A stretch of DNA of 64,000 nucleotides from a virus, in the IMG/VR virus record IMGVR_UViG_3300043419_000665, positions 1-64,000 of that record; one strand, given 5' to 3'. Position 1 is the first letter of the stretch. Each line of letters opens with the position of its first letter. Both the position numbers and the translations under genes were made by a program. The notes beneath the pieces were generated by a model. The model searched no databases and was not told the DNA's origin. It was given only the letters and a program-made list of their open reading frames with translations. Positions 3,152-53,041 of this stretch are shown here, in pieces.

Positions 3152-3167
3152 TCGTATTTCTCCTTAT

Positions 3168-10784: not shown

Positions 10785-13700
10785 GTACATCCTCCAATGT
10801 TACTGTTCCGTCTTTAGTCTTGCCAAAATCAAACTTATAAGATTTGCCTTCTTCAATATGCATATACGCTTTTGCAAAAGATGTAGGAAATACTGTAATA
10901 GAATGTAGGTCTCTACTTGTATCTGCAAGTGTAAGTGATGCCATTTTCTTTCCAGTCTTTGTAATTCTTGGTTTAAAAGAAACTACAAACATTTCATCAT
11001 CTTTATATGGAAGTTGCTTATAACTTAAGAACTTCACAAGAGCATGGGATGATTCTTTTATCTCATCTGAAGGTATGAAAGAAACAATCCTGTTATCATT
11101 ACACAGAACCAGATAAGAGCGACCTGTCTCAATAGTTGTATTTTCATCATCAAATATACCGACACTGCCAGTTTTGTCCAAAATTTCAACTCGTGACCAT
11201 CCTGTTCCTCGTTTAATAGATTTTACCATACCCATAAAAATGTATGATCCTTTTTCTTCAAAGTCTACAATATCTTGAATAAATGCATAGTAGTGAGAGG
11301 GAATAGTAATATTAAACTCTGGAAGGTTTAAGTATTCATACAGGTTCTCTTTAATCTCCTGGTCATTTCTAGGATTGTCATTAAATGTTGCTGCACCAAT
11401 GACCCTTAGTGCTTGTAGTGCACGACTGTTTACTCCGTTTCCTTTTGTAAAGGTAAACTCTTCAAGTTCTTTATATGAACTAAATGGTCGTGCTGATATA
11501 TATCTTTCACCAATTTTGTCAGATATAAACTTGATAGCGCTGAGTCCAAACCGAATACCTTTACCCTCAATCTTAAAATCAATATCCGAATCATTAATGT
11601 GAGGCAACTTAATGCTAATGCCCATTCTCTTTGCTTCAATAAGATATTCAGTTCTTGCATCTTTATCCTTTTCGTTCTTTAGCACTGAGTACATAAACTC
11701 AAGTGGGTAATAATACTTTAGCCATGCTGTCCAATAGGATAGCGTTGAGTATGCTACTGCGTGAGATTTGTTAAATGAATACCCTGCGTGAGCCTCAAAG
11801 TCATGCCATAGATCACGAGCAGCATTAGGAGCAATAAACTTAGATGCTCCCTCTACGAACTTCTCTTTAAACTGATCAAATTCTTTAGCATCCTTTTTCT
11901 TTCCAATGATCTTTCTAACTTTATCTGCTTCCGACATGGACATACCGCCAAGGTGTACGCATGCTTGCATAACCTGTTCCTGGTAAAGAATACAGCCATA
12001 AGTGTCCTCCGTAAATTGTTTTAGTACTTGGTGTGTATAAGATATGTTTTGACGACCATGTTTACGATCAACATAGTCCTTTCCGATAGTGTTCATTGCA
12101 CCTGGACGGACAAGAGCATTAGATGCTGCAAGTTCATTTAAATTCTTTACACCCATCTTAACAAGAAGGTTTGTATATGGTGCTGCTTCACACTGGAATA
12201 CGCCCTTAGTGTATCCATCTGAAAGCATCTGATAAACATTTGCATCATCCATCTTGATTTTAAGAAGGTCAATCTTCTTGCCGTCTCTTTCTTTAATAAT
12301 ATCAATTGTGTTCTTGAGAACAGACAATGTTTTCAGTCCCAAAGCATCAATCTTGATTAGACCAATTCTTTCAGCCTCTTCCATGTCAACACCAACTACT
12401 GGAATTCTTTCGTCAGATCCAGTAGACGATCTTGTTTCAAGTGGTGCATATCTAAAGATTGGTTCCTTTGCAGTCACAACACCTGCTGCGTGGATACCTG
12501 TACCACGGATACGACCACGAAGTTGTTCTCCGTAAATCTCTACCTCTGGATACTTCTCACGAAACTCTCTTGTTGATTTAGATGTGCAGAAATCATCCCA
12601 TGTATCTACGGTTTTTAACACCTTATTTACATCTGATAGAGGAATATTTAATACTCGTGCAACATCTCTAACAATTCCCTTGCCTGTAAACTCAAGAAAG
12701 GTAGCGATAGATGCAACATGTCTATACTGTCTAACAAGATAGTCTTTTACTTCTTCACGACGAGTATCCTGAATGTCTGTGTCAATATCTGGAAAGTCAT
12801 TACGCTCTGGATTAATAAAGCGAAAGAACAAAAGGTTGTGCTCAATAGGATCAATGTCTGTAATCTTTAGTGCATAACAAACAAGAGAGCCAGCAGATGA
12901 TCCACGACCAGGACCAACCATGATCTCTTCTTTCTTAGCCCAGTTGATCATGTTACTCACAACAAGGAAGTATGGAGCAAACTTCTTATCTTTAATGATC
13001 TTTAACTCTTCTTCAAGTCTATCAAGATACTCTTGATTTTCTGACAAACCTCGCTCTGCCAAACCTTCCAATGCAGCCTTTGCAAGTTCCTTGTCAGGAC
13101 TCTTATACTGTACTGGTAAAAGGTTTAATCCTTCTTGAATGCCATAGTCTCCTACTGTCTCTGCTAATAGGAGTGTGTTTGAATATATGTCAGGTCGATC
13201 AATACCCTGCGCTTCCATGGCTGCTTTAATCTCTTCATATGAGAGCAGGTGTATGTCAAACTTGTTAAATGTAATCTGACGGTCTTCGCCATAAAGGTAG
13301 TCAAGGCGTTCCATCATGCTGCCCTTTTTCTTTGACTTTTCATATGTTGCATCTTTTACGAACTTGCCGTGTGTGTTCATGAGCAACTTAAACTCTTGAA
13401 CTTCTTTTTGTGATGGATCAACATGGTGGCAGTCTGGTGTAACAATAACTTTAATACCAAACTCGTCTGCTAGTTCTATCAGATACTTATTAATGTGTGC
13501 TTCATTATGAGGCATAACTTCAACGTAGTAGTCATCTCCAAAGCGTTCCTTGAACCAAGTTAAATACTTCTTGGCAAGAGCAAACTCTTCTTCTTCTAAT
13601 GCTTTTACAAGTACGCTACTTGGGCAAGCAGAGGATACGATAATCCCCTCTTTATACTTTTCTAGTATAGTAAAATCAAATCGTGGCTTCTTAAAGAAAC

Positions 13701-14049
13701 CATCTGTCCAGGATAGTTCACTAATCTTGTTAAGGTTTTCTAAACCAATTTGATTCTTGGCTAGAAGGATAATGTGATTATAGACAAGATCTTGCTGACC
13801 TTCTCTTTCAGACTTATCTCGTGTGTCAGATATGTCTGCACACATGTATCCTTCTAGACCTAGAATTGGCTTAATGCCCTTTGCTTTTGCAATACGGTGC
13901 AGTTCCCTATGCCCAGATAAAGTACCGTGGTCAGTGATGGCAATTGCTGGCATCCCTAACTCAACTGCACGGTCAACGTATTCTTCTGGAGTAGCAATCC
14001 CATCAAATAAACTAAAATGGGTATGGACATGTAAGCCGACGTAGTTCAT
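10774..14049 (-). CDS. dnaE: DNA polymerase III alpha subunit (DnaE-type)
   Basis: This 1091-residue C-family replicative polymerase starts with a PHP domain (LHVHTHFSLFDG at residues 5-16, ITDHGTLSGHREL about 40-52, CHHVDPSQ further on). Its metal-binding His residues look intact, so it may still have phosphoesterase or proofreading activity. The palm has GPGRGSSAGSLVCYAL (about 380) and FPDIDTDI (about 420) with catalytic Asp, and IKIDALGLKTL later. Tandem helix-hairpin-helix and OB-fold regions fill the C-terminus. The ATG at 14049 begins the PHP domain; an upstream extension would overlap the binding-protein gene and lacks homology-like sequence. It lies one base after the single-strand binding gene and overlaps recA. 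Confidence 0.94.
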   Translation of the reverse strand: MNYVGLHVHTHFSLFDGIATPEEYVDRAVELGMPAIAITDHGTLSGHRELHRIAKAKGIKPILGLEGYMCADISDTRDKSEREGQQDLVYNHIILLAKNQIGLENLNKISELSWTDGFFKKPRFDFTILEKYKEGIIVSSACPSSVLVKALEEEEFALAKKYLTWFKERFGDDYYVEVMPHNEAHINKYLIELADEFGIKVIVTPDCHHVDPSQKEVQEFKLLMNTHGKFVKDATYEKSKKKGSMMERLDYLYGEDRQITFNKFDIHLLSYEEIKAAMEAQGIDRPDIYSNTLLLAETVGDYGIQEGLNLLPVQYKSPDKELAKAALEGLAERGLSENQEYLDRLEEELKIIKDKKFAPYFLVVSNMINWAKKEEIMVGPGRGSSAGSLVCYALKITDIDPIEHNLLFFRFINPERNDFPDIDTDIQDTRREEVKDYLVRQYRHVASIATFLEFTGKGIVRDVARVLNIPLSDVNKVLKTVDTWDDFCTSKSTREFREKYPEVEIYGEQLRGRIRGTGIHAAGVVTAKEPIFRYAPLETRSSTGSDERIPVVGVDMEEAERIGLIKIDALGLKTLSVLKNTIDIIKERDGKKIDLLKIKMDDANVYQMLSDGYTKGVFQCEAAPYTNLLVKMGVKNLNELAASNALVRPGAMNTIGKDYVDRKHGRQNISYTHQVLKQFTEDTYGCILYQEQVMQACVHLGGMSMSEADKVRKIIGKKKDAKEFDQFKEKFVEGASKFIAPNAARDLWHDFEAHAGYSFNKSHAVAYSTLSYWTAWLKYYYPLEFMYSVLKNEKDKDARTEYLIEAKRMGISIKLPHINDSDIDFKIEGKGIRFGLSAIKFISDKIGERYISARPFSSYKELEEFTFTKGNGVNSRALQALRVIGAATFNDNPRNDQEIKENLYEYLNLPEFNITIPSHYYAFIQDIVDFEEKGSYIFMGMVKSIKRGTGWSRVEILDKTGSVGIFDDENTTIETGRSYLVLCNDNRIVSFIPSDEIKESSHALVKFLSYKQLPYKDDEMFVVSFKPRITKTGKKMASLTLADTSRDLHSITVFPTSFAKAYMHIEEGKSYKFDFGKTKDGTVTLEDVHVS

Positions 14050-14050
14050 A

Positions 14051-14704
14051 TTACCAATCAGCGTTAGTTGCTGAAGTGGCAGATGGGCCATCAAAGCCCA
14101 AGTAGAACGCTTCTTGTTCTGCGTAAGGAACCTTGCGTAGTGCAGACTCTAGTGGGTAAGGCTTAATCTCTCCCCAGTTGAATGGCTCCTTGTCTGGTGC
14201 AGATGGAATCAATGTGTAATTGGTTTCAGTTCCCTGTCCGTTACGCTTTAACTTCCACTGTACATTTGAGATGCTTCCTGTTTCAAGAGCATACTCACGA
14301 ATTGTGTTGAATGATGATTGCTTACTGATACCCATTGACCAGATTGCAACATATGGTGCTTCGATGCCGTCGTCTACAAGAACGTTGCAGTAGAAACGAA
14401 GACGTGCTCTCCAGCCAGCCTTTGGATCCTTGCGGTGCATCTCTTCAGCCCAGTCACGACCTTCTGTATCCATTGTATCTACAGCCTTACGCTTGTAGTC
14501 CTTTGGGTTTGTATGTTCTGATACAACAATTGCTAGTCCACGCTCTGCGTTATAGTTTGCTGAATCTTCATCGAGTTCTTCTAAGAACCTAATCTTTACT
14601 GATTGTCCATCGGCAAGTTTTAACCACTTAACCTTTGGGCCATCTCCACCCTTTGGGCCATCTAGTACTGGACCCATTTCCTTTATTCCTCTTAGTATTG
14701 CCAT
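14051..14704 (-). CDS. Phage single-stranded DNA-binding protein
   Basis: The protein has 217 residues. The KVKWLKLADGQSVKIRFLEEL segment (about 24-44), ARLRFYCNVLVDDG and the strand VQWKLKRNGQGTETNYTLIP form the beta-rich OB-like core seen in T4 gp32-type phage proteins. The tail ends in a mixed polar segment. It would coat single-stranded DNA at the fork beside the polymerase, primase and helicase genes. The ATG at 14704 follows AAGGAGA at good spacing, and a strong promoter lies just upstream, as expected for an abundant protein. Confidence 0.7.
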   Translation of the reverse strand: MAILRGIKEMGPVLDGPKGGDGPKVKWLKLADGQSVKIRFLEELDEDSANYNAERGLAIVVSEHTNPKDYKRKAVDTMDTEGRDWAEEMHRKDPKAGWRARLRFYCNVLVDDGIEAPYVAIWSMGISKQSSFNTIREYALETGSISNVQWKLKRNGQGTETNYTLIPSAPDKEPFNWGEIKPYPLESALRKVPYAEQEAFYLGFDGPSATSATNADW

Positions 14705-25143: not shown

Positions 25144-25799
25144 TACGCCTCTTCCAGTGTTAGGGCGACATTCCAAAAGTCAAAGTTAAGACCGCTTCTT
25201 TTTACAACAGAATACTTAAAGTCTGAGAAAAATACTTCTACAATCTCATTATACTTATTTATATTATTAAACCTGTTGTCTGCTTCAGTTAAATCTGTAT
25301 CTTCAAAGTTTGTGTACTTATCATAAGCCAAGTAAACCCAAAAAGATCCTTTATGGTTTTCATACCAGTCAAGCAGTTCTACTCCGCCTGCTCCACCATC
25401 TGTAGTAAATTCTAATGGCTTTGGTCTTGATGGTGATGATTCCATGTCTGCATTTCCACTGGTATTAAAGTCTGCCTTGGTGTCATATGCTCTTGATGGC
25501 AGCATATCCCAAGAAACAGATATGTTTAATTTATCTGCAATGTGGTATGACCTCATACGTCCATTGATCATTCTTTCACGTTTTTCAATTCTAACGGGAG
25601 TAAAGTCTATCTCTGATCTATTATCATCAGAGAGTATTAGAAAGTCTCTAGTATTGGCTGCAGAGCCTGCATATGCCCCTACCTCGTACCCGTCTGGGAC
25701 GTAAAAACCATTAACCTTTGTTCCAGGGTTGTCTGCAAATAGCATTGCTTGTGGTCTTGAATATTTTTTTCTTCCAGACATATATGTATTAGTTGCCAT
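25143..25799 (-). CDS. Distal tail protein (Dit-like)
   Basis: The protein has 218 residues and lies directly after the tape measure gene in the transcription order, the standard place of the distal tail protein. Features include SAANTRDFLILSDDNRSEID, the KLNISVSWDMLPSR strand and the terminal FDFWNVALTLEEA. It would form the ring joining tube and tail-tip. The ATG at 25799 is preceded by GGGGGA and overlaps the tape measure stop. Confidence 0.7.
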   Translation of the reverse strand: MATNTYMSGRKKYSRPQAMLFADNPGTKVNGFYVPDGYEVGAYAGSAANTRDFLILSDDNRSEIDFTPVRIEKRERMINGRMRSYHIADKLNISVSWDMLPSRAYDTKADFNTSGNADMESSPSRPKPLEFTTDGGAGGVELLDWYENHKGSFWVYLAYDKYTNFEDTDLTEADNRFNNINKYNEIVEVFFSDFKYSVVKRSGLNFDFWNVALTLEEA

Positions 25800-28700
25800 T
25801 ATAATCTATTCCCCCTGAGTTTTTGTGAATCAATACCCTTTATTTGTGTCATTACAACTCTTGCAATTTCATCTGGGTTTGCATCTGATTTTACATTAAC
25901 ACTAATACTATAATTATACACTGAGTCTCCTGCTGATTGGCCACTATTTATTGCTCTCATTGTGTCTGCACCATGAGACTGAACAGCATATCTACTCATT
26001 ACAAATTCTCCTGGTGTTAGCATTGCAGGGACTGTGTCTGTTCCAGAAGCATATCCACCTTCTGCAAAGTATTTTGGAACTAGTCCGCCCTTAGAAAACA
26101 TTTGAAGTCCATAAAAACCATTTCCGCTTCCACCCATTGATGCTCCAGAACCAACTAATGGCCTTAAACTCTTGTCTACATCCATTGGATTGCTAATGCT
26201 CTTTTTAGGCTGTTCTGCTAGTTGATGGAAATAGTCTGAGAAGTTTGCTACCTTGCCGTTAAATGGAAGACCTGGGATCTCTGTTCCTCCCCATGGATCT
26301 TTTCCAGCATCATTAAATATTGGCTTACCTTTAGTATCAAATCCTAATGGTGACTGCTGATGAAGTCTTTCTAGTTCTCCCCAATACCTTGATGTTGGAC
26401 TTCCAGTTGGCTTATTGTCTGAATCATATGCAGATTTTGGCTTAGGTGGAAAATATTCGTCTGCTCTAGCCTCTGATGTCTTGAACAAAGAAAGACCAGT
26501 AATTGCAGCAGCAAGTGCTGATGCTTTAGCGATCAGAGACTTGTTGGTTCCAATTTTTTGAGTGTTATTTAGATTTGGCTCAACGATTTTAGGGATATCT
26601 GTTCGTGGAACAAAAACTGTTTTTCCATCTTTTACAACTGCTTTAAGGTCTGGACCATCTTTAAACTTTAATCGCATTCCAGGAATATTTCCAACACCCC
26701 AATTGGTGTATGCATCTCCATGTCTATATCCAATATATCCATCTCTCATAAGTGATTGCATAAATGGGTCAGTTGTATCAGCATTTATATTTCCCATATC
26801 TCTTGGCTGAGTCCCTGTTGTTTTAATATAATTCTCTTTATATTTTGCCATTTTTGGTGGATCTATAAATCCTTTACTTGTTAAAACTTTAAACATTGCT
26901 TTTGGTGTCAAATCTATACCGTACTGATTATCTCCAAAAGTATTAAAGAATTGTTTAGAAGTTGCTGGACTAGTTGCACTATACAGGCCTGGCCCATATG
27001 CGTTCATTGGTGTTTTTGCTCCATCAAATTTTGATGCTAAGAATCTTTCTAAAGGAGATGGAAGATCCTCTATAAGTTTTCCATGTCGATGAATGCCTCT
27101 TTTCATTTGAATTAATGCACCAAGTCCGCCAGGAATTGAATCTAATATTGCTTGAGTCTTGTAGTGCTTTACTAATTCATCTGCATTGTCTCCACCAACA
27201 TCAGCAATCTGACGAGAAAGAGACATATTTCTTCCAAAGTTTGTTTTTTCGTATTTGCCTATTAAGAAGTTTGTTGCAGAATCTTTAACTTTATTAAATC
27301 TTGAAGTAATTGGGCTTGTAATATCAGAAGCAATATTTTTAAATGCGTTACCATATGAAGCAGTTTTCTTTCCATTTTCTCCTGAAACCATAGACCTTTG
27401 AAGATATGAACGCTCATCTAAAGGAGTGTCTATAAGTCTTTTAGGGTTAAGTGCTTTTCCTAAATCAGCAACAGTTGGTGCTACCTTTGCTGCCACAAGG
27501 CTTCCAAGTTTTGTGCTTAAAAATGAATTATTTATTGTTGGTTCTTTTTCTCCTAGCCTCCAAGCCTGACTTATTTTAGGGCTAAGATTTTCAAAAAATC
27601 TTCTAGGAGAATATACAGCATTTGCTATTTTGTTACGGATTGGGTTCATCCCTTGTATTTTCATTCCAAGTCTTGTGTCCCAAGGTTGTTTTGGCATTAC
27701 CCAATTATCTGAATCCCAACTTCCCCAATCATCCATATTTGATTCTTTTGAAGATACTGTATTAGTATTAGTGGTTAGTTTTTCTTCTACCAAACTTGTA
27801 TTTGGTTTTGTTGTTGTTACAGCATTTGCCTTATTTAGTATTTTATTAAATATATCGATACCATTTTTTCCAAGGGATTCTTTTATGGTTTTAGGAATAA
27901 TGCTACCTAACTTGTTAATTGCTGGCTTTACTGCTTTTAAACCTGGAACTGGTGCAACTGCTAAAGCAGCATTTAAATTATCTTTTAGGCTAGACTTTGT
28001 TTCTGCACCCATTGCTTTAGCAGCAAACATTTGAGGAATACCGCCATACTTTGCAATGTCCAAAGCAGTTTTTGCTATTGATGGAAGTGAAAAGAAGTTA
28101 GCAGTTTTTTCCCATATCTTCTTATCAAATAATGATGTTGCTCTTTCATCTTGGGTATTGGTGCTTCTAGAGCCCATTGATGACATCCCTAGACCATGTG
28201 GTGCACCTACGGTTCCACCAGTTGAGAATCTTTGAACATTTATATCATTTAAGAAGTCTTGGCCATATTGATCAACTGCAGACTTTCTAACTACAAACTC
28301 TCCTGGAGTTAACATTGCAGGTACAGTATCTGTACCCTTTGGTATGAAGCCACCATCTGCTTGATATAGCATTCCGTACTTTCCTGTTAGACCTCCTCCA
28401 GGTTTTGCATTTGGATCAACTTCTGGAAGTGTTGCATCGTATGCCGACTGGATTGCAGCAAGAGCAATTCCTGCATTTCTAACTCTATACATGTTTCCAC
28501 TTGCAACGGCTGATTCGTATGCTGCAATTGCTGCATCAAGTGCTTGTACTGTGTTATCAAACTTTTCTGCTTCACTTATTGTTGCTTGTGTCTCTTGAGG
28601 TGCTACATAGGCTTCTGCGCCTACTCCTCCAATTTGATTCATTGCATTTTGAACTGCGCCAGGAATTCCATTTGCATATTGAGCCATCTTTGCAAGAATA

Positions 28701-31700
28701 TCTGCCCATGTCATGTTTAATGTCTCTGCTGCTGAAAGTAGTGCTGCTAAGTCTGCTGATTGAGCAAGGGCTCGCTTTGTTGCTGCATCCATATCAAGCA
28801 TTGCATTGATTCTATCCCACTCGTCCCTGGTTTTTCCAAGAACTCTTAGTCCTTCAATTTGCTTGTCGATACTATCCTGCAATAATTTATTTGTATAGTT
28901 AAGAGCATCAATTCTTTCTTGAAGTGGTTCAATAGAATTTTCTTCAATATTCCAAATTTTATCTTCAAGATCTCTAATCTTACGTAATGCGGCTTCACGC
29001 AGTTCTTCTTTTTTGTATATTTCATCTTGCTTATCCTGAATCTGCTTTAATATTTCAAGTCTACGTGGATCAGTTTCCATACGATAAATTGCTTGTGCAT
29101 TTTGGAATTGTTTTTCACTTATCTGATCCTGAGTCAATCCGCTTTGTGGCCCTACAAGACTACCAAGTGCATTTTTTCTTGCCTGCTCCAATGCATCTGA
29201 TTGACCTGATGCAAACTGTGAGGCGCTTGTTGCTCTCATATCTTGTGCTGCTTGGGCTGCTGCTGAAATATCACCTTGAGTCAAGGCATCAGCAAGACCA
29301 AGTTGTTGCTTCTGCTGATCAAGAATATTTTGATTTATTTCTTGAACCTTTGAAAGCGCTTCTGCTTGCTCGTCGTATCTCTTGTTAACTTCATCTGCTG
29401 CATGATTTATAATTTCAAGATCATTTGAAAGCATTGTATTTTCATCTTGAATCTTCTTTATTGCACGGTCACCAAAGAAAGGATTCATTTCTAGATCACG
29501 GTTTAGGTCATTAATCTCTTCGTTTAAATCTTCTATTGGTCTTGTGTATGATTCTTCAATTACTCTTTGACCATCTTCAATTTCATCATTTAGTTCTGCA
29601 ATTCTTCTTTGGAATGGAGCAATCTGTCCTTCAAGATCTCTGATTTGTCTTTGATTGCCCTTTAGTTGCATTGCCTCTGGGCCTGTACGAATAAGTGCTT
29701 CCTGTGCTGCAAAGAGTTCGTCTACAACTTCTCTTCCCTTATCGCTGGCTTCTTTAAGTGCTCCCTTGTTAAGCAAAATCTGAATATCAATAATTTTTCT
29801 TGCTTCAATGTTATTTAGAGTCTCTGCAATTTCTTTAGCCTCTAACTTTCCATCCTTCAAATCTTCTACTAAGAATTTTGCTAACTCTGGGTCTCCAAGA
29901 ACTGCATCAATCTGATCTGTGCTATACCCAAGTTCCTTCATCTTAGAAACTAGTTCTGGCATTTTTGCATAAAGACCAAACTCCTCGTTTGCCTTTATTG
30001 CTTTATTTAAAACTGCTTGGCGCTCAAGTTCTGTATTTGCTGTCTTTATATTATTAATATATGTTTGCCATGCTGGTGATGATGTATCTATTGCTCCCGC
30101 TGCAATTGCTGCTGCTTGACCTGTGTCTGCAACAACCTCTAATGCTTTTGCTGCAGATAGTCCGCTACCAACAAGAATAGCATATGCCTTAGTTTGATTC
30201 TCTATATCCTTTATTATTGTTGCATTAGCAATGTCAAAGTTACCAAGGTCTTTTGCTTTGATTGCTTTGTCTGTTGCTTCGCCAAGTGGACCAAGACCAG
30301 ATATTGAATCCTTTGATCTTGGCTTTCCTTTTTCAAAGGTAAACATAGCCTTATCTTTTGGTAGTGCTGCAACCTTTGCAAAATCTTCTGCAGACATAGA
30401 TGCAACAGCATCTCTTAGTTCTTGACCAACACCAAGTTTTAGAAGCCTATGTTGTATACCATCAAATAAAGTAAAAGCATTCTTCTTTGTTTTATTATCT
30501 TTTAATAATTCTAGTAATGATTTTACTGGTGTGAGGGCATTAAATGCATTGTCTCTTACATTCTTTAAAGCCATTGCCAATGGTGCTAAGAATGCTAGTG
30601 GATCATTTCCTGCTCCGCTGCCACCACCTGAATCTGCATTGCCTGAAGAGTTAACAACAACCTCTCCATTTTCACCAATATAAGTTTTTGTGCTTGCAGC
30701 AACTCGGTCAACAAGTGTTTCATCTGCATTTTTTGCATTATACATAAGCGATGTTAAGTGGCCTGTAGCAGTTGTATCTCCGCCTGTAGCCTTTTGTGCA
30801 TACTTGCTATAAAATGCCAACCTGGATGCTTCATCAGCAAACACTGTTTCCATTATAGTTTTAAATTTAGAGACTGCTTCTTTTTGTGCAAAGTCTGGAA
30901 GTTTATCAAAGTCTTTCCATTTGCTAAATAATACTTCAAGGTTGCTTTCTGTCATACCCTTCATACCCTTGCCCTTGCCATTAACAAAGTAATCAAGGAT
31001 AATAGCCTTATCTATTTTCTTTGGCATTCCATCAATTGTTTTTAAATCTTGAGAAAGTTTGACAAGCATATCATAACCAATTGGTTTGCCATCAGAATCT
31101 TTCATGCTAAGGAATGCTTCCATATTAATTTCATGACCGTCTAATACTCTTAGAACTGCCAGGGTTTCACCTATTTCATTAAATGTTTTTTTATCACTAT
31201 TAATAATTTTTGTAGAAATCGTGGCTGCAGCATCGCCATCTTTAAACGCTGAAAAGTATTCTAAAATTTCTATAGTTGGTCCAGCACCCTGTCTTTGCAT
31301 TCCAACCTTTAGTGTTTGACTAAGTTCTGGTAATTTTCCTTCAAACATAAGTAAGAAGGTGTCCATTTGGTCTGGATTTAAAACCTTGTTTGCTAGAAGA
31401 AGCGACATGTCAACTTCAAAATCTTGAGCAGCCATTTGGGTCTTAAATCCTCCCTTTGTTGCATTTCCGTCACCTAATTTCAAGGTCTTGTCGCTTAACT
31501 TAGCCAATTTTTCAAGGGTTGTTCCTACTGATGTTTCAAATCCTGTACCTTTATAGGTATCTTTAACTTTAGATTTTAGGGAAGAAAAGTAGGCGGTTTC
31601 TTTTTTGTTTGATTTAAAACTATCTACATTCTGAATATTGTCTTTAAATCTTTTCTTTTCTCTGTCCATTTGAACAACGACTGCATTATTTGCAACCACC

Positions 31701-34700
31701 ATATCGTCTGCCATTTTTTCTTCTAATCCAGCAATCTTTTCTTTTATTTTTAAAAGTTTTTCTGCATTTGAAGTGGACTCTAACTCTTTTTCTAATAACT
31801 GAATTTGTTTTCTATATTGAAACTCTGTTGCATCAGCCTGTGCTTTTGCAACAGAAATATTGTTTACAGAAAGTGCTGCAAGTTGTGCAGCCTCTGTTCT
31901 ACCACCATCCATACTCATTGGTGAGTAGTTTTTATTCATTGCATCGATAACTCTATCAGATCTCTTGTTTGTCTCCTGAACAATTTGCATTCTAACCTTT
32001 AGAGGATTATTTGCTAGATCTTCTCCGTTTACACCAATAACTTCTCTTAAGTTTCCAACAATATCAGCAGTGTACTTTCTGCTGCCTAGTTGTACTCCTA
32101 TTTGATCAGCAATGTCTGCTGCTTGTGCTGCATCTAAAACTCCATCTGAAACATATGTTGATAATTGTAAAGCAAAATCTTTTGCTGCTGCCTGTGAACC
32201 AGATTTGGACATTTCTTTTACAAAGCCATCCACCATTTTCTTTCCAATTTCTGACCTTAAGAATGTATCTCCAAAGCCAGTTCCTGCTCGTTCAACATCG
32301 TTGTATGAACCAAATGATCCCTTCTTTCTTACTTCGTCCATTGCACGAGAAGCGCCAACCTTGTCTGTTATCTTTCCTATCTCGTCCATCTTATTAGTTG
32401 TTGCTGATATTGAATCTACATACTGGGCTTGCTTTTTAGCAGAATTTTCAAAATGCTTATTTAATAAAAACAGTCCTGCACCTGCTGCTACTATTGCAGT
32501 TGTAACCCAGCCAGTTGGCCCCATACCCGCAAGCATTGGAGCCATACCTGCAACTGTTGAAGCGCCCAGCATTGCCATACCGCCCGATGTATTGCCAGAC
32601 ATCATCATTGCAGATCCAGCCATGCCAAGCCCCATAGCCAATCCGCCTGATGCTACTCCAACTTTTTGTGCACGATAGTCTCTTTTTTCTTTAATCTTAT
32701 TTTTTCGTGCTTGTGCATCTTGTTTTTGTGACTGCTTAAGATTGTTTAGTTTTCTTCTTTCATCTTCGTCTAATGCTTCTTGATAATACCTTGCCTGATT
32801 ATAGTTAAGATTTGAAAGATGTTGCTGCTTTCTAAATCTGGCTCTTGCTTCATTAGTCTGTCTTCTGCGGTCTGCATCATCTAACTTTTGATTTCTTACT
32901 TGTTGGGTTACGGATTCTGATTTACCCTTAGCAAGTTTTGCTTCATCCTTTGCAACCTTTCTTAATACTTTATCAATTTCATCTTGGCTATATCCCTTTG
33001 CACGAAGATCTGCTGCTACTCTACCCTGGCGAACTGTAGGGTTTGGCATTGGTCTGTCTGCTTGAGAATCAAATCTTGGATCACCCGTAGCCATTCCAGG
33101 CATAGAGAATCCAGGTACAGATGCAAAACCTCTACGGAAATTTGCAAACTGTCTTCTAGTTACAACTGTTTGGTTTGGTGTTAATGATGTTCCTCTGCTA
33201 TCTTTACGACTTCCGCTGCTTGGAACTGCTCCAGCCTTTGCTGCAGTAGTATTAGAATCTGTTAATTTTTCTGTTCTTATTACTCTTTTGGTTTTTGGAT
33301 CAATTGTCATCTTGGTCTCACTACCGTCAGGGTTTACTAAGACTGGCAATGTTTTATCTGATCCACTCTTAAGGTTGAACTCTGGTTGAGGAGAACTATA
33401 GTACTTTGTGCCAAATCTATCATCGAGAACAGCCAAGACTCCCTTAGCAGTTTTTGCTGGTCCTAGTTTTGGGAACCTCTTTGGCTTTCTTCCTGCTTTT
33501 GCTTCACTGTCTTTGTATTGCTGCGCTAGAACATCAAGTTCTGCTGCTTTTTGGACTAACCTTGCTTCTCTTTCATTTGTTGGATGACCACCCTTTGACA
33601 TGAACTCAGCAGCCTCAGTATAAATTCCAATCTGATTTTTTGGAATAAACGGGTGTCCATTTTTTGCACTCCAGTCTAAAATCTTGCCGTGTCTAACTGA
33701 AGCGTTCATAAACTTATTTAATATACCTAAATCAAACATAGCAGAGCCTGTTAACCATTTAGCAGGGCCCTTACCAGGTTTTCCAGTTTTACTTATATGG
33801 GATAGTTCAGTTCTTAGTGCAGTATCAATTTCTTTTGGTTTGTATCCCAAAGCAACAAGTTTTTCTCTTACTGGCTTTAATGGATCATTTTTTCCTGCAA
33901 TTTTATTTTGTTCTGTAAAGGCCTTTTCTTCAGCATCTAAAACTTGATACAACTCAGAATCTCTAGGAACGTTTCCTCTCCAAGATCCACTTTCTTTTCC
34001 TACAGGGCTAACTGCATTTCTTAATCTAGAGGCAGCATTAATTTTTTTATCGCTTACAAATTCTCCATCTTTTTGTCTTACACCCATCTGATAAAAAACT
34101 TTTTGCATTACTTCTTCATATGTTCTTCCATAAACTCTTCCAGCATCTAAAGTTTTTTTGTCGTGATAAAGTCCATCTTTGTAAATAAGTTCCTCGTCAA
34201 CAAACTTAAGCATATTGCTTTGGCTCAGATAATCTTCTAAGGTCTGTGGACCAATTACTGCTGGTGTCCTTGCATTCATTTTTTGTTTTGCAATTGCATC
34301 TAGTACTCTTCTTTGTTGCTCTTCAGGTAGTTGCTTAAAATCTCTAGCAGCCTGAGCAGCAAGACCTTTTCTTAGTGTTGATATCTGTCTTTGTGATTCT
34401 GGAATATTTTTAAACTTTTCAAAATCTCCAAGTGCAAGTTTTTTAACACCTTCTGATGCACGAGCATGAACTGGATGAAGTTCATCCCAGTGTACTTTTG
34501 CTCCAGCCTTAAGTCTTTCAAGCATGTTGTTGTAAACAACTTGCTCTTCTGGATTTAAATCCCCACTCCAAGACTTAATAAGTCTTTCTAGTTTTGGAAT
34601 AGAACTATTAATCTCTCCTTTAATTGCATCATCATATTGTTTTGGTGTCATGCTTGCTGCAACACCTGATGTTTCTTGTGCAAAGAACTTCTTTGCGCCT

Positions 34701-37672
34701 CCCTTTACACCAAGCAAGTTAACAACTGCTTGCTCCTCCATGCTTGGCATTGCTTTTGAGAAATCTCTAAAACCAGATGCTCTATCAAACACTCCAGCCG
34801 TTCCAACATCTGCTAACACATTTCCAGACAAATTTGGTTGCTGTAAATCTTTGTCTCCTCTTAATGTTGAAGCAACTAACTGCTTAACCATATCAGACTT
34901 GCTAAACTTGCCATCCATTGCTGCTATTCTTGGATCATACGGTGATTCAATTACTATAAACTTTCTTTGACCTGATGGATCTGTTGGGTCAATCATTGTT
35001 CTAATACTTTGTTTTGGTGCAACTAGACCATGAACCTGTCTTGCAATTTCAGTAGCACGAACTTCTGCTAACGCAGTCTTTTCATCTATTGTTGGTTTTA
35101 CTACAACAATCTTTCCATTAGGCTTTCTGTATATACCGCCAACTCCTTGAACAGGGAAACTTCTTCCAGAAAATGGCTGAAGCAGTGTCCCAAAGTTTGA
35201 TGGAGGCAAAGTTCCAAATCTTCCGACACTTACTTGATCACTAATTTTTTCTACTATCTGCCTTGACTGAGATGTTTTATCGCTTGACTTTGGCATTCCA
35301 ACAAATACTGGACCAGTTGGAACTTCTGGATGAGGCTCGTTATATCCTTGTCTTGCATCATCTCTTCTTCTATACTTTGCTTGCTGTGCTTTTCTAACTG
35401 CTGCTGGTCCATCAGATAGTGGTATTCCTCTACCTGGTCCACCAGGAAGTCTTCCAGCCATAAAACCTGGAACCTTATCCTGGAACATGGCACTAATAAG
35501 TCCTCTATATTTGTTTGTTGTATCTGTAGGAATAACTGCTTCTCCTGGAGAAAGCATTGCTGGAACAACATCTCCTGCACCCTTTGGACCTGGAACACTC
35601 AGGATTCCCTCTGCATACTTTTTAACTGGTGGCAACTTGCTTACTGCACGTCGTGCACCTGGTACTCCACCTGCAAACAATGAAGGATTCTGTGCAGCCA
35701 TAGTTCTCATTTGTGTGCTAAGAGCATGATAGGATGCAGCAAGATTATTTACGGAAACCTTTTCAACATTAAATACTTCGATCAATCTTGTATGTGTTTG
35801 GTGTAACTGTTGAGAGGCAGCAGCAGATTCTATCTGCTCTTGAGTCATGTAGTTAAATCCTGCACCCATTACAGATGTCTGTCCATTTAACTTTGCTATT
35901 CCTCCACGCAGCATTGCAAAGAATTTAATAACATTTGCTACGCCGTTTGCAAGTAAACCAAATGTCATAAGAAGTACTGGTCCAAGACCTGCAACAACTC
36001 CAACTATGACAGCAACTACCTTTTTAGTTTGATCGCTTAATCCATTAAACTTTTCAAATATGTTACCAAAAAACTTAACAACTGGAGTTAGTGCTTCAAG
36101 AAACGCTTTACCTAATGGCATGATCTCTTGCTTGAACTGTTCTATTGCTGCCTGAAACTTAACCCCTACTGAGTCTTCAATCTTCTTCATTTCTCGCTCA
36201 GACAAGACTGCTAATTCTTCTATAGTAGATCCTGCTAAGTCAAGTGCTCTTGATGCCTGAGTTCCATCTTTTGCAACATTTTGGAACAAGGTAGAAAGAC
36301 GAGCAAACTGGAACTTTCCAAACATTTGCTCAATTGCTCTTGCACGATTAAGTGGATCGAGTGTATCAAGTGCTTGAGCAAATCCAATAACTGTTGCCTT
36401 GATATCTCCCTGGTTTGCTTCTACAATTCCTTTAACATTGATACCAAGATCTGCAAGGAATCCTGCTGCCTTCTTGGATGGGTTAATTAGGGATGCTAGA
36501 CCAGACTTTAATGCGTTAGCACCTTCAGATGCGTTGATTCCACCTTCTTTCATTGCAGTCATAAAGAATGCAAGGTCTTCAACGTTTCCGCCAAGTTGTT
36601 TAATTACTGGTGCTGCTTTTGGAATAGCGATTGTTAAATCTTCAATTGAAAGAACGGTCTGGTTTTCTACTGCGTTAAGGAAGTCAATCTTTTTTGCAAG
36701 TTCTTCGCTAGACAAACCAAAAGCATTTTGTAAAGACATAGTTGTTTCAAGTGCTTGCTGTTGTTCTACTTGTCCAAGCACTGCTAGTTTAGTTGCAGTT
36801 TCAACCTGAGTATTTAATGCTGCTCCTGCAAAACCTGCTGCTGCTGCTGTTCCAGCCATCTCCATTGTTTTTGTAACAGAGACTCCGTACTTTGTATATT
36901 CAGTTGCTAACTTTCTAATGTTTTCAACTGCAGCATTTACTTCTGCATCATTTGTAACTGCTGTTCCATACACACGCTTAAACTTAACAATCTCTGTTTC
37001 AAGTTCTCTAAATGCTTTTGCAGCAGATGCACCAAATAAAGCAAGTGGCATTGTAAGACCAACCATCAACTGGCGACCTGCCCACTGAGTATTCTTACCG
37101 AAGTTCAGGAGTTGTGTTGATCCCTGCTTTAGTAATTGATTTAAGAACTGCTGTCTTTGTGCAGCATACTGAATTCTTGCTCCAAGTTCAGTAAATCTTC
37201 CACTAGCCATCTGAAGATTTTTTGGCATAATGCGAATAGCATCCATAAAGCCAGCATTGGCTTTGTTCATCTGGATGTATTGTGCTTGTAAAGCCTTTAC
37301 TCTGTCTCGTCTTGCACGGTTGATAATTTCTCGCTCTTGTGCAAAAGCCCTGCCCATAACACGAGTGTTGGCAGTTGCTGCTGCCATTGTGTATCTGTAG
37401 TATTCACGAAGCGAAAGTTTATTTTTTTCTAAAGCAGATGTAAATGCTAGTGTACTTCCTGCAACCTTAACTTGGCTTGCAGAGAACTTTCCTGTTGCTC
37501 CAAGAGACTGAAGCAGTTGTGCGTTTAAACCTTTTTGTGCATTTGCAGCAGCCAGGTTGCCCTCAGCAAGTGATTGATGAAACTTACTGAGGCCTGCCTG
37601 AAGTTGTCGAAGTTGTGCAAGGGCGGCAGCCGTATTAAAATTAATATTTATATTAGAGTTTACATCTGCCAA
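25799..37672 (-). CDS. Tape measure protein, 3957 aa, with embedded enzyme-like domains
   Basis: This is one of the longest phage proteins in its class. The start is a TTG at 37672 after AAGGGGG; the nearby ATG is out of frame. The order is: N-terminal helical region; TP901-type tape-measure core (about 230-480); a hydrophobic stretch (about 550-580); PAMLSPGEAVIP motif (about 695); kinase-like insert (about 835-1010); Lys/Arg-rich helical linkers (about 1200-1650); Gly/Ala/Met-rich hydrophobic region (about 1670-1740); long helices with a strong coiled coil (about 2650-2800); TDTVPAMLTPGEFV (about 3120); ADP-ribosyltransferase-like insert (about 3520-3680); and a second TDTVPAMLTPGEFV (about 3880). 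It sets tail length and probably crosses the membrane with DNA. Two chaperone genes lie just upstream. Confidence 0.95.
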   Translation of the reverse strand: MADVNSNININFNTAAALAQLRQLQAGLSKFHQSLAEGNLAAANAQKGLNAQLLQSLGATGKFSASQVKVAGSTLAFTSALEKNKLSLREYYRYTMAAATANTRVMGRAFAQEREIINRARRDRVKALQAQYIQMNKANAGFMDAIRIMPKNLQMASGRFTELGARIQYAAQRQQFLNQLLKQGSTQLLNFGKNTQWAGRQLMVGLTMPLALFGASAAKAFRELETEIVKFKRVYGTAVTNDAEVNAAVENIRKLATEYTKYGVSVTKTMEMAGTAAAAGFAGAALNTQVETATKLAVLGQVEQQQALETTMSLQNAFGLSSEELAKKIDFLNAVENQTVLSIEDLTIAIPKAAPVIKQLGGNVEDLAFFMTAMKEGGINASEGANALKSGLASLINPSKKAAGFLADLGINVKGIVEANQGDIKATVIGFAQALDTLDPLNRARAIEQMFGKFQFARLSTLFQNVAKDGTQASRALDLAGSTIEELAVLSEREMKKIEDSVGVKFQAAIEQFKQEIMPLGKAFLEALTPVVKFFGNIFEKFNGLSDQTKKVVAVIVGVVAGLGPVLLMTFGLLANGVANVIKFFAMLRGGIAKLNGQTSVMGAGFNYMTQEQIESAAASQQLHQTHTRLIEVFNVEKVSVNNLAASYHALSTQMRTMAAQNPSLFAGGVPGARRAVSKLPPVKKYAEGILSVPGPKGAGDVVPAMLSPGEAVIPTDTTNKYRGLISAMFQDKVPGFMAGRLPGGPGRGIPLSDGPAAVRKAQQAKYRRRDDARQGYNEPHPEVPTGPVFVGMPKSSDKTSQSRQIVEKISDQVSVGRFGTLPPSNFGTLLQPFSGRSFPVQGVGGIYRKPNGKIVVVKPTIDEKTALAEVRATEIARQVHGLVAPKQSIRTMIDPTDPSGQRKFIVIESPYDPRIAAMDGKFSKSDMVKQLVASTLRGDKDLQQPNLSGNVLADVGTAGVFDRASGFRDFSKAMPSMEEQAVVNLLGVKGGAKKFFAQETSGVAASMTPKQYDDAIKGEINSSIPKLERLIKSWSGDLNPEEQVVYNNMLERLKAGAKVHWDELHPVHARASEGVKKLALGDFEKFKNIPESQRQISTLRKGLAAQAARDFKQLPEEQQRRVLDAIAKQKMNARTPAVIGPQTLEDYLSQSNMLKFVDEELIYKDGLYHDKKTLDAGRVYGRTYEEVMQKVFYQMGVRQKDGEFVSDKKINAASRLRNAVSPVGKESGSWRGNVPRDSELYQVLDAEEKAFTEQNKIAGKNDPLKPVREKLVALGYKPKEIDTALRTELSHISKTGKPGKGPAKWLTGSAMFDLGILNKFMNASVRHGKILDWSAKNGHPFIPKNQIGIYTEAAEFMSKGGHPTNEREARLVQKAAELDVLAQQYKDSEAKAGRKPKRFPKLGPAKTAKGVLAVLDDRFGTKYYSSPQPEFNLKSGSDKTLPVLVNPDGSETKMTIDPKTKRVIRTEKLTDSNTTAAKAGAVPSSGSRKDSRGTSLTPNQTVVTRRQFANFRRGFASVPGFSMPGMATGDPRFDSQADRPMPNPTVRQGRVAADLRAKGYSQDEIDKVLRKVAKDEAKLAKGKSESVTQQVRNQKLDDADRRRQTNEARARFRKQQHLSNLNYNQARYYQEALDEDERRKLNNLKQSQKQDAQARKNKIKEKRDYRAQKVGVASGGLAMGLGMAGSAMMMSGNTSGGMAMLGASTVAGMAPMLAGMGPTGWVTTAIVAAGAGLFLLNKHFENSAKKQAQYVDSISATTNKMDEIGKITDKVGASRAMDEVRKKGSFGSYNDVERAGTGFGDTFLRSEIGKKMVDGFVKEMSKSGSQAAAKDFALQLSTYVSDGVLDAAQAADIADQIGVQLGSRKYTADIVGNLREVIGVNGEDLANNPLKVRMQIVQETNKRSDRVIDAMNKNYSPMSMDGGRTEAAQLAALSVNNISVAKAQADATEFQYRKQIQLLEKELESTSNAEKLLKIKEKIAGLEEKMADDMVVANNAVVVQMDREKKRFKDNIQNVDSFKSNKKETAYFSSLKSKVKDTYKGTGFETSVGTTLEKLAKLSDKTLKLGDGNATKGGFKTQMAAQDFEVDMSLLLANKVLNPDQMDTFLLMFEGKLPELSQTLKVGMQRQGAGPTIEILEYFSAFKDGDAAATISTKIINSDKKTFNEIGETLAVLRVLDGHEINMEAFLSMKDSDGKPIGYDMLVKLSQDLKTIDGMPKKIDKAIILDYFVNGKGKGMKGMTESNLEVLFSKWKDFDKLPDFAQKEAVSKFKTIMETVFADEASRLAFYSKYAQKATGGDTTATGHLTSLMYNAKNADETLVDRVAASTKTYIGENGEVVVNSSGNADSGGGSGAGNDPLAFLAPLAMALKNVRDNAFNALTPVKSLLELLKDNKTKKNAFTLFDGIQHRLLKLGVGQELRDAVASMSAEDFAKVAALPKDKAMFTFEKGKPRSKDSISGLGPLGEATDKAIKAKDLGNFDIANATIIKDIENQTKAYAILVGSGLSAAKALEVVADTGQAAAIAAGAIDTSSPAWQTYINNIKTANTELERQAVLNKAIKANEEFGLYAKMPELVSKMKELGYSTDQIDAVLGDPELAKFLVEDLKDGKLEAKEIAETLNNIEARKIIDIQILLNKGALKEASDKGREVVDELFAAQEALIRTGPEAMQLKGNQRQIRDLEGQIAPFQRRIAELNDEIEDGQRVIEESYTRPIEDLNEEINDLNRDLEMNPFFGDRAIKKIQDENTMLSNDLEIINHAADEVNKRYDEQAEALSKVQEINQNILDQQKQQLGLADALTQGDISAAAQAAQDMRATSASQFASGQSDALEQARKNALGSLVGPQSGLTQDQISEKQFQNAQAIYRMETDPRRLEILKQIQDKQDEIYKKEELREAALRKIRDLEDKIWNIEENSIEPLQERIDALNYTNKLLQDSIDKQIEGLRVLGKTRDEWDRINAMLDMDAATKRALAQSADLAALLSAAETLNMTWADILAKMAQYANGIPGAVQNAMNQIGGVGAEAYVAPQETQATISEAEKFDNTVQALDAAIAAYESAVASGNMYRVRNAGIALAAIQSAYDATLPEVDPNAKPGGGLTGKYGMLYQADGGFIPKGTDTVPAMLTPGEFVVRKSAVDQYGQDFLNDINVQRFSTGGTVGAPHGLGMSSMGSRSTNTQDERATSLFDKKIWEKTANFFSLPSIAKTALDIAKYGGIPQMFAAKAMGAETKSSLKDNLNAALAVAPVPGLKAVKPAINKLGSIIPKTIKESLGKNGIDIFNKILNKANAVTTTKPNTSLVEEKLTTNTNTVSSKESNMDDWGSWDSDNWVMPKQPWDTRLGMKIQGMNPIRNKIANAVYSPRRFFENLSPKISQAWRLGEKEPTINNSFLSTKLGSLVAAKVAPTVADLGKALNPKRLIDTPLDERSYLQRSMVSGENGKKTASYGNAFKNIASDITSPITSRFNKVKDSATNFLIGKYEKTNFGRNMSLSRQIADVGGDNADELVKHYKTQAILDSIPGGLGALIQMKRGIHRHGKLIEDLPSPLERFLASKFDGAKTPMNAYGPGLYSATSPATSKQFFNTFGDNQYGIDLTPKAMFKVLTSKGFIDPPKMAKYKENYIKTTGTQPRDMGNINADTTDPFMQSLMRDGYIGYRHGDAYTNWGVGNIPGMRLKFKDGPDLKAVVKDGKTVFVPRTDIPKIVEPNLNNTQKIGTNKSLIAKASALAAAITGLSLFKTSEARADEYFPPKPKSAYDSDNKPTGSPTSRYWGELERLHQQSPLGFDTKGKPIFNDAGKDPWGGTEIPGLPFNGKVANFSDYFHQLAEQPKKSISNPMDVDKSLRPLVGSGASMGGSGNGFYGLQMFSKGGLVPKYFAEGGYASGTDTVPAMLTPGEFVMSRYAVQSHGADTMRAINSGQSAGDSVYNYSISVNVKSDANPDEIARVVMTQIKGIDSQKLRGNRL
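26640..27115 (-). other. ADP-ribosyltransferase-like segment inside the tape measure protein
   Basis: Residues about 3520-3680 of the tape measure protein contain GIHRHGKLI, then NAYGPGLYSATSPATSKQFF, then QYGIDLTPKAMFKVL and, later, GYIGYRHGD and NWGVGNIPGMRLKF. The order His-Gly, Tyr-Gly-x-Gly-x-Tyr, a strand ending in Leu, then a Gly-Tyr-x-Gly strand and a final hydrophobic strand is that of the ART-like domains of phage polyvalent proteins. No clear catalytic Glu is seen, so activity is uncertain. Confidence 0.45.
34640..35175 (-). other. HipA/PI3K-like kinase segment inside the tape measure protein
   Basis: Residues about 835-1010 read GVGGIYRKPNGKIVVVKP (Gly loop plus ATP-binding Lys), ALAEVRATEIARQVHGL (helix C-type Glu), KFIVIESPY (hinge), RGDKDLQQPNLSGNVL (catalytic Asp and metal Asn) and VFDRASGFRDF (second metal Asp). 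The order and spacing match the HipA and PI3/4-kinase-like fold found in bacteria and phages. Activity is not proven. Confidence 0.5.
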
Positions 37673-51007: not shown

Positions 51008-53041
51008 CTACTTGTTTATTTTAATTTCACAATAGTCTGTAGTGCAGTACATCTCTCCCTGAGCCTCAAGGTTTTCTGCTCCATCATAGATAGCAGAAAA
51101 ATCAATGTGCTTCAATTTGCCGATATATGACTCGTATTGCTCTTCAGTAATCTGGGTGTATGGCTGTTGTGGATATGTGTGATTTCCCATTGGCAGGAAT
51201 GAAACTGCCTTTAATTGTCCCTCGTACATATGCAGTGCTGGAACAACATGCTTTGACTCTGTTTCCTTATCAAATGAAAGCGTTACAGAAACTCCATTAT
51301 CAGACCAGTACTTCTGAGCAGTTGCAGCAAGTGCAATCTTTTCAAATAACGTAACATCCTTTTCAGATCGTGGATGACCTGACTTGATTGGGAAGTATAC
51401 AACTGATGTGTTTGCTGATACAACGTCGTCTTCTATTGTGTACCCCGCTGCTTTGAACAAGTGCATCATTGGATCTGTGTTTCCAAATCGAACTGCACGA
51501 AGGAAGAAGTTTCCTCCAGGTCCCCAGTGAACTCCAGGAGTTGCACCAGAAAGAATTGAAACTGATCCTGATGGCTTAACTGTTGTTACACGAATTGACT
51601 CACGAACACATAGCCACTCTGAATACTGGTGGTCATAGTGACGAATCTTATTGTATCCTTCATCCATCCATTCACGAACAACTGGCAAACCCTTCTGATC
51701 TGCAAATGATGCAATACCAGTGAGTGATGTACCAATACGACGATTGCGTTGCATGATACCGTTTGTTTGTGGCCAGTGTGTTGGAACAAGCGTTACAGTC
51801 TTTCCATAAAGGTATGCAAACTTCAGGGTACGCAGGAAGTCTTCCTTAGATTCATGACGATTTAAGTGCACTTCTACAAGTGTACACAGTTCGTATGATT
51901 CTAATGGCTGCTCCGCACATGGGTTGAATCCCATCACACGATAATCCTTACCGTCTGGCGCATCCTTTAGTCGTCCATAATTACGAGCAACATCAAGCCA
52001 GATAAAACCTGGTTCTCCGTTTTCCGTAATTAAATCTACATAGTCTTCATAATTTGTTCCTACTTCTGCTGAAATAGAATTGTTAGACATCCAAGCCCAA
52101 CCTGGAGTCTCTGGATCAAATGAGTTACGCTCTGGGAACATCTCTGAGTTCTTTAGATTCATAAATGTTTCATCCCCTGCATTACCCAAAGCAAGAGTTG
52201 CTGATCGTCTTACGTTTCCTGATACCACACAGGTACCAATAAGATTTACAAGGTCTACGATAGCACGAGAGTCTAGGGTTTCTCCGCCTCTGGAGCCGAT
52301 TACACGGTCTATCTGGTCGTGCAACTTGATAAGAGGTGCAGGTCCTGATGCAACGCCTCCAAAGCCCTTGATAGGGGCTCCTAGGGGTCTGATCAAATCG
52401 TAGTTAAACTTCTGAATACTCTGGTTTGCTCTTAAGTAAGAGTTGATGAGAAGGCGTACTGATTCTACCCAGCCTTCACGAGTGTCTGGAATTTCGAACA
52501 CCTGTTCTGGCTCTGTTGGGGTATAGATTGAGAAATTCTTATCCTGTCCCACTGTGTCAAACCCTACACCAATGCCAAGCATCAATGCATCCATAACCCA
52601 AGCAAATAATGCTCCTGGATCATTCTTATCAAGGTCCTTGGTTGAAACCATGGCACAGTTTTGTAGTGCTGCTGAGTTCTTTTTCTCCATAGTCATAGGA
52701 GTTCCAAATGCCCACATGCCACGACCTGGTGGTGTCCACTTTAATTCAAACATTCTTTGGAATGCTTCTTGTGCTGACTTCTGAGCCTTATAGTCATTCC
52801 ATGGCAAACGGTTTTCTTTAGCATGATTCTTCTGAACTGAATACATACCCTCGATTACACGGCGACAAACTTCATTCCATCTTTCTTTAGTTCCATCTTC
52901 CTTCATACGAGAATATGTACGAATAAAAGTAATTTCTCCAAGTGAATTTTCTGCTGCATCCTTGAATCCAAATGGGCTTTCTACATTTTTGTACTTTTCT
53001 ACAAAATCTTCTGGAAGTTTAAAACTAAAAAAATCTGACAT
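51008..53041 (-). CDS. nrdJ: Class II ribonucleotide reductase (adenosylcobalamin-dependent)
   Basis: The protein has 677 residues. It reduces ribonucleotides to deoxyribonucleotides for phage DNA synthesis and needs vitamin B12 coenzyme but no second subunit. Motifs: NCAMVSTKDL (about 126, first redox Cys), ALMLGIGVGFDTVG, the second redox and radical site region GFNPCAEQPLESYELC (about 370-385, Cys and Glu), TVKPSGSVSILSGATPGVHW (about 485-504), and the C-terminal CTTDYCEIKINK thiol pair that re-reduces the site. The size and motifs fit the monomeric RTPR type. The leader carries AAAGGACG, with an extended -10 upstream. Such genes help phages in nutrient-poor hosts. Confidence 0.93.
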   Translation of the reverse strand: MSDFFSFKLPEDFVEKYKNVESPFGFKDAAENSLGEITFIRTYSRMKEDGTKERWNEVCRRVIEGMYSVQKNHAKENRLPWNDYKAQKSAQEAFQRMFELKWTPPGRGMWAFGTPMTMEKKNSAALQNCAMVSTKDLDKNDPGALFAWVMDALMLGIGVGFDTVGQDKNFSIYTPTEPEQVFEIPDTREGWVESVRLLINSYLRANQSIQKFNYDLIRPLGAPIKGFGGVASGPAPLIKLHDQIDRVIGSRGGETLDSRAIVDLVNLIGTCVVSGNVRRSATLALGNAGDETFMNLKNSEMFPERNSFDPETPGWAWMSNNSISAEVGTNYEDYVDLITENGEPGFIWLDVARNYGRLKDAPDGKDYRVMGFNPCAEQPLESYELCTLVEVHLNRHESKEDFLRTLKFAYLYGKTVTLVPTHWPQTNGIMQRNRRIGTSLTGIASFADQKGLPVVREWMDEGYNKIRHYDHQYSEWLCVRESIRVTTVKPSGSVSILSGATPGVHWGPGGNFFLRAVRFGNTDPMMHLFKAAGYTIEDDVVSANTSVVYFPIKSGHPRSEKDVTLFEKIALAATAQKYWSDNGVSVTLSFDKETESKHVVPALHMYEGQLKAVSFLPMGNHTYPQQPYTQITEEQYESYIGKLKHIDFSAIYDGAENLEAQGEMYCTTDYCEIKINK

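Follow-up and report, generated by a model that had tools for sequence, protein, structure and literature searches.

The stretch of DNA analysed here (the window) comprises 64,000 nucleotides of an uncultured virus contig from IMG/VR (73,784 bases in full) and belongs to a siphovirus-like freshwater phage. Its tape measure protein (TMP) is encoded by a single open reading frame that matches both the phage minor-tail family PF10145 (E = 4.9e-26) and phrog_10030, from the PHROG tape measure families (E = 4.9e-97). The N-terminal part of the TMP has matches in 294 phage records, chiefly those of Streptomyces and Gordonia phages. Because the closest relatives of the phage's capsid and TMP N-terminus are found in large Streptomyces phages (with identities of at most 45 and 30 per cent, respectively), the host is probably an actinobacterium. 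Positions 51008–53041 of the window encode a B12-dependent ribonucleotide reductase and positions 10774–14094 a DNA polymerase III alpha-type polymerase; no tRNA genes were found in the window. The TMP and its relevant parts are as follows:

25799..37672, minus strand: tape measure protein, 3957 amino acids, TTG start
36317..36913, minus strand: PhageMin_Tail core of the TMP, residues ~254–452
35450..35620, minus strand: PGE linker repeat 1, residues ~685–741 (KKYAEGILSVPGPKGAGDVVPAMLSPGEAVIP...KVPGF), adjoining the kinase cassette on its N-terminal side
34433..35266, minus strand: kinase-fold domain, residues 803–1080 (AlphaFold2 model, Foldseek PDB matches, and conservation)
28193..28360, minus strand: PGE linker repeat 2, residues ~3105–3160
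26648..27175, minus strand: ART-like module, residues 3500–3675, a possible second enzyme cassette
25943..26074, minus strand: PGE linker repeat 3, residues ~3867–3910

An initial annotation of this DNA had recognized five kinase-like motifs within the TMP and assigned them to a domain of residues ~835–1010. The motifs are indeed embedded in the TMP in the proposed order and place (GKIVVVKP at residues 853–860, LAEVRATEIA at 868–877, FIVIESPY at 905–912, GDKDLQQPNLSGNVL at 939–953, and VFDRASGFRDF at 961–971; window 35116 down to 34760), and the domain lies where it was proposed, but its true extent is larger (~803–1080). Its predicted functional elements, with their conservation in 84 nonredundant homologs (described below), are as follows:

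35096..35098, minus strand: K859, predicted beta3 ATP lysine in VVVKP (84 of 84 homologs and 22 of 22 in a separate set; model strand 55–61)
35063..35065, minus strand: E870, predicted alpha-C glutamate (83 of 84; model helix 64–79)
34946..34948, minus strand: E909, end of beta5 and predicted hinge (83 of 84; model strand 104–111)
34832..34849, minus strand: predicted catalytic loop D942-L-Q-Q-P-N947 (D942 and N947 in 84 of 84; after model helix 125–138)
34802..34810, minus strand: D955-V956-G957, predicted DFG-like motif (D955 in 84 of 84, G957 in 82 of 84; after model hairpin 148–149/152–153)
34760..34792, minus strand: VFDRASGFRDF, predicted activation segment (A965, S966, and G967 invariant; D963 variable)

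AlphaFold2, run on the domain with 84 homologs, returned a high-confidence model (pLDDT 91.3, pTM 0.89). In this model, an N-lobe of beta1, beta2, beta3 (carrying K859), alpha-C (E870), beta4, and beta5 (with E909 near its end) is followed by a short helix, a long helix, the D940–N947 loop, a tight hairpin (residues 948–953), D955-V-G957, and five helices (model positions 178–187, 196–206, 210–234, 241–257, and 262–270). Model and conservation together thus yield, in order, the beta3 Lys, alpha-C Glu, D-x4-N, D-x-G, and helical C-lobe of a protein-kinase-like fold, and neither of the outcomes that the initial annotation had named as fatal to its proposal, an all-helical or unrelated fold and the loss of the Lys, Asp, or Asn in homologs, was seen. 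The spacing of D942 and N947 is that of HRDxxxxN kinase loops. The position of the HRD His is occupied by an Asp (D940), so that DKD replaces HRD and DVG replaces DFG; the beta7–beta8 hairpin is very short, with a two-residue turn; and D955 sits eight residues past N947, compared to a usual spacing of ~13. The Asp of VFDRASGFRDF, which had been taken as the metal-binding residue, can be ruled out as the DFG Asp by its variability: only 30 of the 84 homologs have Asp at the D963 position, the others having mostly Lys, Gln, Gly, Ala, or Ser. Since D955-x-G957 is, in contrast, retained almost throughout directly behind the hairpin, topology and conservation make D955-V-G957 the likely better equivalent of DFG.

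When the model was compared to the PDB with Foldseek, the best fifty matches listed were all kinases, including AAK1 (the top match, with a probability of 0.90), JNK, GAK, HipA (up to 0.85), CylM (0.82), and p38. TM-scores to solved kinases are low (query-normalized values of about 0.2–0.33), and only one PDB match reaches E ≤ 0.001; the fold assignment therefore draws on the confidence of the model, its matching topology, and the agreement among the matches. On the basis of the model, the kind of fold, that of a kinase, is well supported, whereas the closest family is not. Among the predicted structures of the BFVD, a portal-annotated phage protein, HHTV-1 gp13, and two ART-annotated phage proteins are matched with a probability of 1.00.

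By sequence, the domain stands apart from described families: it matched no Pfam family and no PDB chain. The earlier description of its layout as 'HipA/PI3K-like' holds as far as the general fold goes: HipA structures do appear in the list of PDB matches (probabilities of 0.60–0.85), but they are accompanied by AAK1, GAK, JNK, and CylM, and no sequence or profile link leads to HipA or to PI3/4-kinases. Specifically, HipA, the toxin kinase of Escherichia coli K-12, belongs to a separate sequence family; there was no match to the Pfam HipA family, and in an hhalign comparison with the single E. coli sequence as template (probability 0.35, E = 0.17) the catalytic residues did not align. PI3/PI4 kinases were found neither by Pfam or PDB sequence searches nor among the fold matches listed. 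Eukaryotic-type kinases such as AAK1, GAK, and JNK give the best Foldseek E-values and share the order of Lys, Glu, D-x4-N, and D-x-G, but the domain differs from them in the missing HRD His and the short beta7–beta8 hairpin; it has neither HRD nor DFG and produced no Pfam Pkinase match. Sequence likeness was found in HHTV-1 gp13 (YP_008058703), a protein of 1100 amino acids from a Haloarcula virus, whose Lys, Glu, and NRDIHGGN align to K859, E870, and D942–N947 in a structure-free profile alignment (E = 0.0037; one short alignment against a single sequence). However, HHTV-1 is a haloarchaeal virus, its gene lies in the head region, between a portal-size gene and a MuF gene, and gp13 has a DFG-like motif of its own (VDNG) at the usual spacing.

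A bare motif pattern carries little weight, since shuffled TMP sequence totalling 4.6 million residues contained a loose version of it 48 times; it is conservation in hundreds of relatives that lifts the motif order above the level of chance. Four overlapping searches of viral contigs recovered 121, 376, 404, and 280 stretches encoding the domain, from which a nonredundant set of 84 domains was compiled (46–87 per cent identity to the domain in the window). Every member of this set has K859, D940, D942, N947, and D955; E870 and E909 are each absent from one. Because these scans used peptide patterns taken from the motifs themselves and hence select for motif conservation, we re-tested it on 36 domains fetched via the TMP N-terminus, 22 of them new, with identities down to 41 per cent. 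K859, D942, N947, D955, and G957 are present in all 36, and E870 in 35; all 22 new domains retain K859, E870, D942, N947, and D955. The DFG-like site reads D-[VAG]-G among the sequences listed. The dN/dS ratio of the domain is 0.09–0.17 against five close relatives and 0.06 against one near-identical relative, which is similar to that of the TMP N-terminal core and lower than that of the downstream segment; these sequence comparisons support purifying selection on the domain. All carriers found are uncultured phages. A search of cultured phages found no relative, and neither did two scans that looked for peptide patterns in 84,980 genomes of bacteria and archaea, patterns that distant relatives could escape. 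In L034 and L151, the kinase domain is divided over two short frames, reflecting either a phage frameshift or an assembly error.

Among 128 usable related TMPs fetched by their N-termini, the domain is present in 36 and absent from 92, in a sample seeded from kinase carriers that gives no estimate for the population. The L177 TMP (residues 1–975 and 1280–2708) aligns to the L405 TMP (residues 1–990 and 996–2425) with 74 and 51 per cent identity, respectively, and the gap corresponds to the kinase (L177 residues 989–1265); L189 and L419 show the same with/without pattern. The TMP reading frame survives loss of the domain as a block. In a tree built from 173 TMP N-termini, presence and absence require at least 19 state changes, a number that lumps recombination between N-terminus and cassette with loss, compared to at least 48 for shuffled labels. 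As judged from these phylogenetic patterns, the domain is inherited, yet frequently gained, lost, or exchanged. Additionally, its position differs among TMPs (residue ~750, ~990, or ~1330). Computation thus supports a mobile, exchangeable cargo cassette in the TMP.

The PGE repeat, with a rough consensus of VPGPKGAGDVVPAMLSPGEAVIP...KYxxLIxGMIxxxIPGF, lies ahead of the kinase in the window and flanks it on both sides in the L257 and L412 TMPs, and in L423 the same repeat pair flanks a different, unrelated segment. The PGE repeats could be both linkers and recombination sites. The region of the window behind the kinase (33173–34432; TMP residues ~1081–1500) contains an 'ELSHI' and 'HPTNEREARLVQKAAEL' pattern and by eye resembles that unrelated L423 cassette (residues 727–1049).

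Other enzyme domains keep the kinase company. The L165 TMP combines it with an acid phosphatase of the HAD type at residue ~1371, which scores 62 bits against PF03767 (cut-off 27); the same enzyme was recognized by its motif (SVFDxDDTLLDL) in L178 (~1504) and L175 (~1328). In the L385 TMP, a GNAT domain (PF00583; residues 1225–1350) follows the kinase, scoring 20.9 bits where the cut-off is 20.7. A HIGH nucleotidyltransferase was considered for residues 1035–1205 of the same protein (GAHQPFTTAHEMI) and set aside as a resemblance unconfirmed by Pfam and PDB. In the window, the ART-like module displays the pattern HRHG ... GPGLYSAT ... GYIGYRHGDAYTNWGVG, and its position shifts among related TMPs, some of which, for example shorter ones, lack it. 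Its AlphaFold2 model is of moderate confidence (pLDDT 76.4, pTM 0.73), and its Foldseek matches are weak (best probability 0.15), although several of the best are to ADP-ribosyltransferases (ARTs), and the Albireti toxin, ParT, PARP14, PARP12, Jlx, and Tpt1 are among them; an ART cassette at this place is a weakly supported lead. CHAP and LysM domains occur in other related TMPs, as in known TMPs with embedded cell-wall enzymes. Those enzymes, however, target the envelope, whereas a kinase requires ATP and so would probably act in the cytoplasm.

Enzyme cargo in virion proteins is a known principle. The polyvalent proteins encoded by phages and by conjugative elements are described as large, multidomain, virion-borne proteins that are predicted to accompany the DNA into the host, with exchangeable enzyme domains that include short kinase domains, ART, and GNAT, and Alt of phage T4 is cited there as a known injected ART (PMC5512222). 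The TMPs analysed here resemble them in that kinase and HAD phosphatase or GNAT occur in one TMP with clean presence and absence, the presence of these domains in the virion resting on the TMP being a structural protein. The carrier differs, as the term 'tape measure' is absent from the text of that paper, and so does the kinase: polyvalent-protein kinases are said to lack a C-terminal subdomain and to have a conserved His with an insert ahead of the catalytic Asp (Iyer et al. 2017, PMC5512222), whereas the TMP domain has helices past its DFG-like motif and an Asp at the His position. The initial annotation knew of no established case of a kinase in a TMP, and none was found in searches of the open-access literature. 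Both the TMP as a carrier and this kinase family appear to be new.

The embedding of the domain in the TMP, its kinase fold, its conserved catalytic residues, its clean gain and loss, and its enzyme company are all supported by computation. The reading that we favour, and hold to be reasonably probable, is that a domain of kinase fold, its catalytic set complete, is carried as exchangeable TMP cargo into a probably actinobacterial host and phosphorylates a target there. Catalytic activity, entry into the cell, a target, and a benefit to the phage are what we infer beyond the computed features. Siphophage TMPs are believed to provide the conduit through which the DNA passes (PMC7824862). The TMP would thread the tail, exit with the genome, and line or cross the host membrane; the kinase would refold on the cytoplasmic side and would phosphorylate a host protein or small molecule, favouring the start of infection. 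A folded domain of ~30 kDa would hardly fit inside the tail tube, and it must therefore travel unfolded, be cleaved free, or sit outside the lumen. It is plausible that the kinase could act on its host as soon as infection begins, as had been suggested; its cassette behaviour and the companion enzyme cassettes both fit this.

It is less likely, although deserving of some weight, that the kinase acts late in infection in the producing cell, in virion assembly or in the control of lysis, with tail proteins or host factors as its targets or after being clipped off before assembly. The TMP gene is a late structural gene amid tail genes, and the intact frame after block loss makes release by cleavage possible. 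However, a protein used only in the producing cell would have no need of fusion to the TMP, and a tail-assembly kinase should not be absent from 92 of the 128 related TMPs. The HAD phosphatase, GNAT, and ART-like companions resemble virion-borne cargo, and the same is true of the structural matches, which lie in other phages' portal and ART proteins.

A pseudokinase, its fold kept for binding or structure, for example as a nucleotide- or protein-binding plug of the tail that does not transfer phosphate, is improbable. The Asp at the position of the HRD His, the very short hairpin, and the variation of D963, which lies nearer to the canonical spacing of a DFG Asp, would all suit such a protein; pure binding, however, would not demand that five catalytic positions, including D955-x-G957, be kept down to 41 per cent identity. 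It is very unlikely that the block merely lengthens the TMP, with incidental kinase-like residues: the TMP does set tail length, and related TMPs range from about 1850 to 4400 residues, but the confidently modelled globular kinase, the invariant polar catalytic residues, and the differing positions of the same domain all argue against a spacer.

A broader proposal, to which we give about even chances, is that a widespread group of freshwater phages uses its TMPs as modular delivery vehicles. Cassettes of the kinase, GNAT, HAD phosphatase, and ART-like kinds would be swapped between the repeated PGE linkers and injected via the tail, so that the host would be reprogrammed at once, as a tail-borne counterpart of the capsid-borne polyvalent proteins. 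The clean pairs of TMPs with and without the domain make the idea testable. If the TMP does deliver folded enzymes into the cytoplasm, it would be an effector carrier besides a ruler and a membrane channel. This would bear on how TMP segments pass through the tail tube and the membrane, would offer a natural template for protein delivery, and would add a kinase family to the proteins that are active ahead of any phage gene expression.
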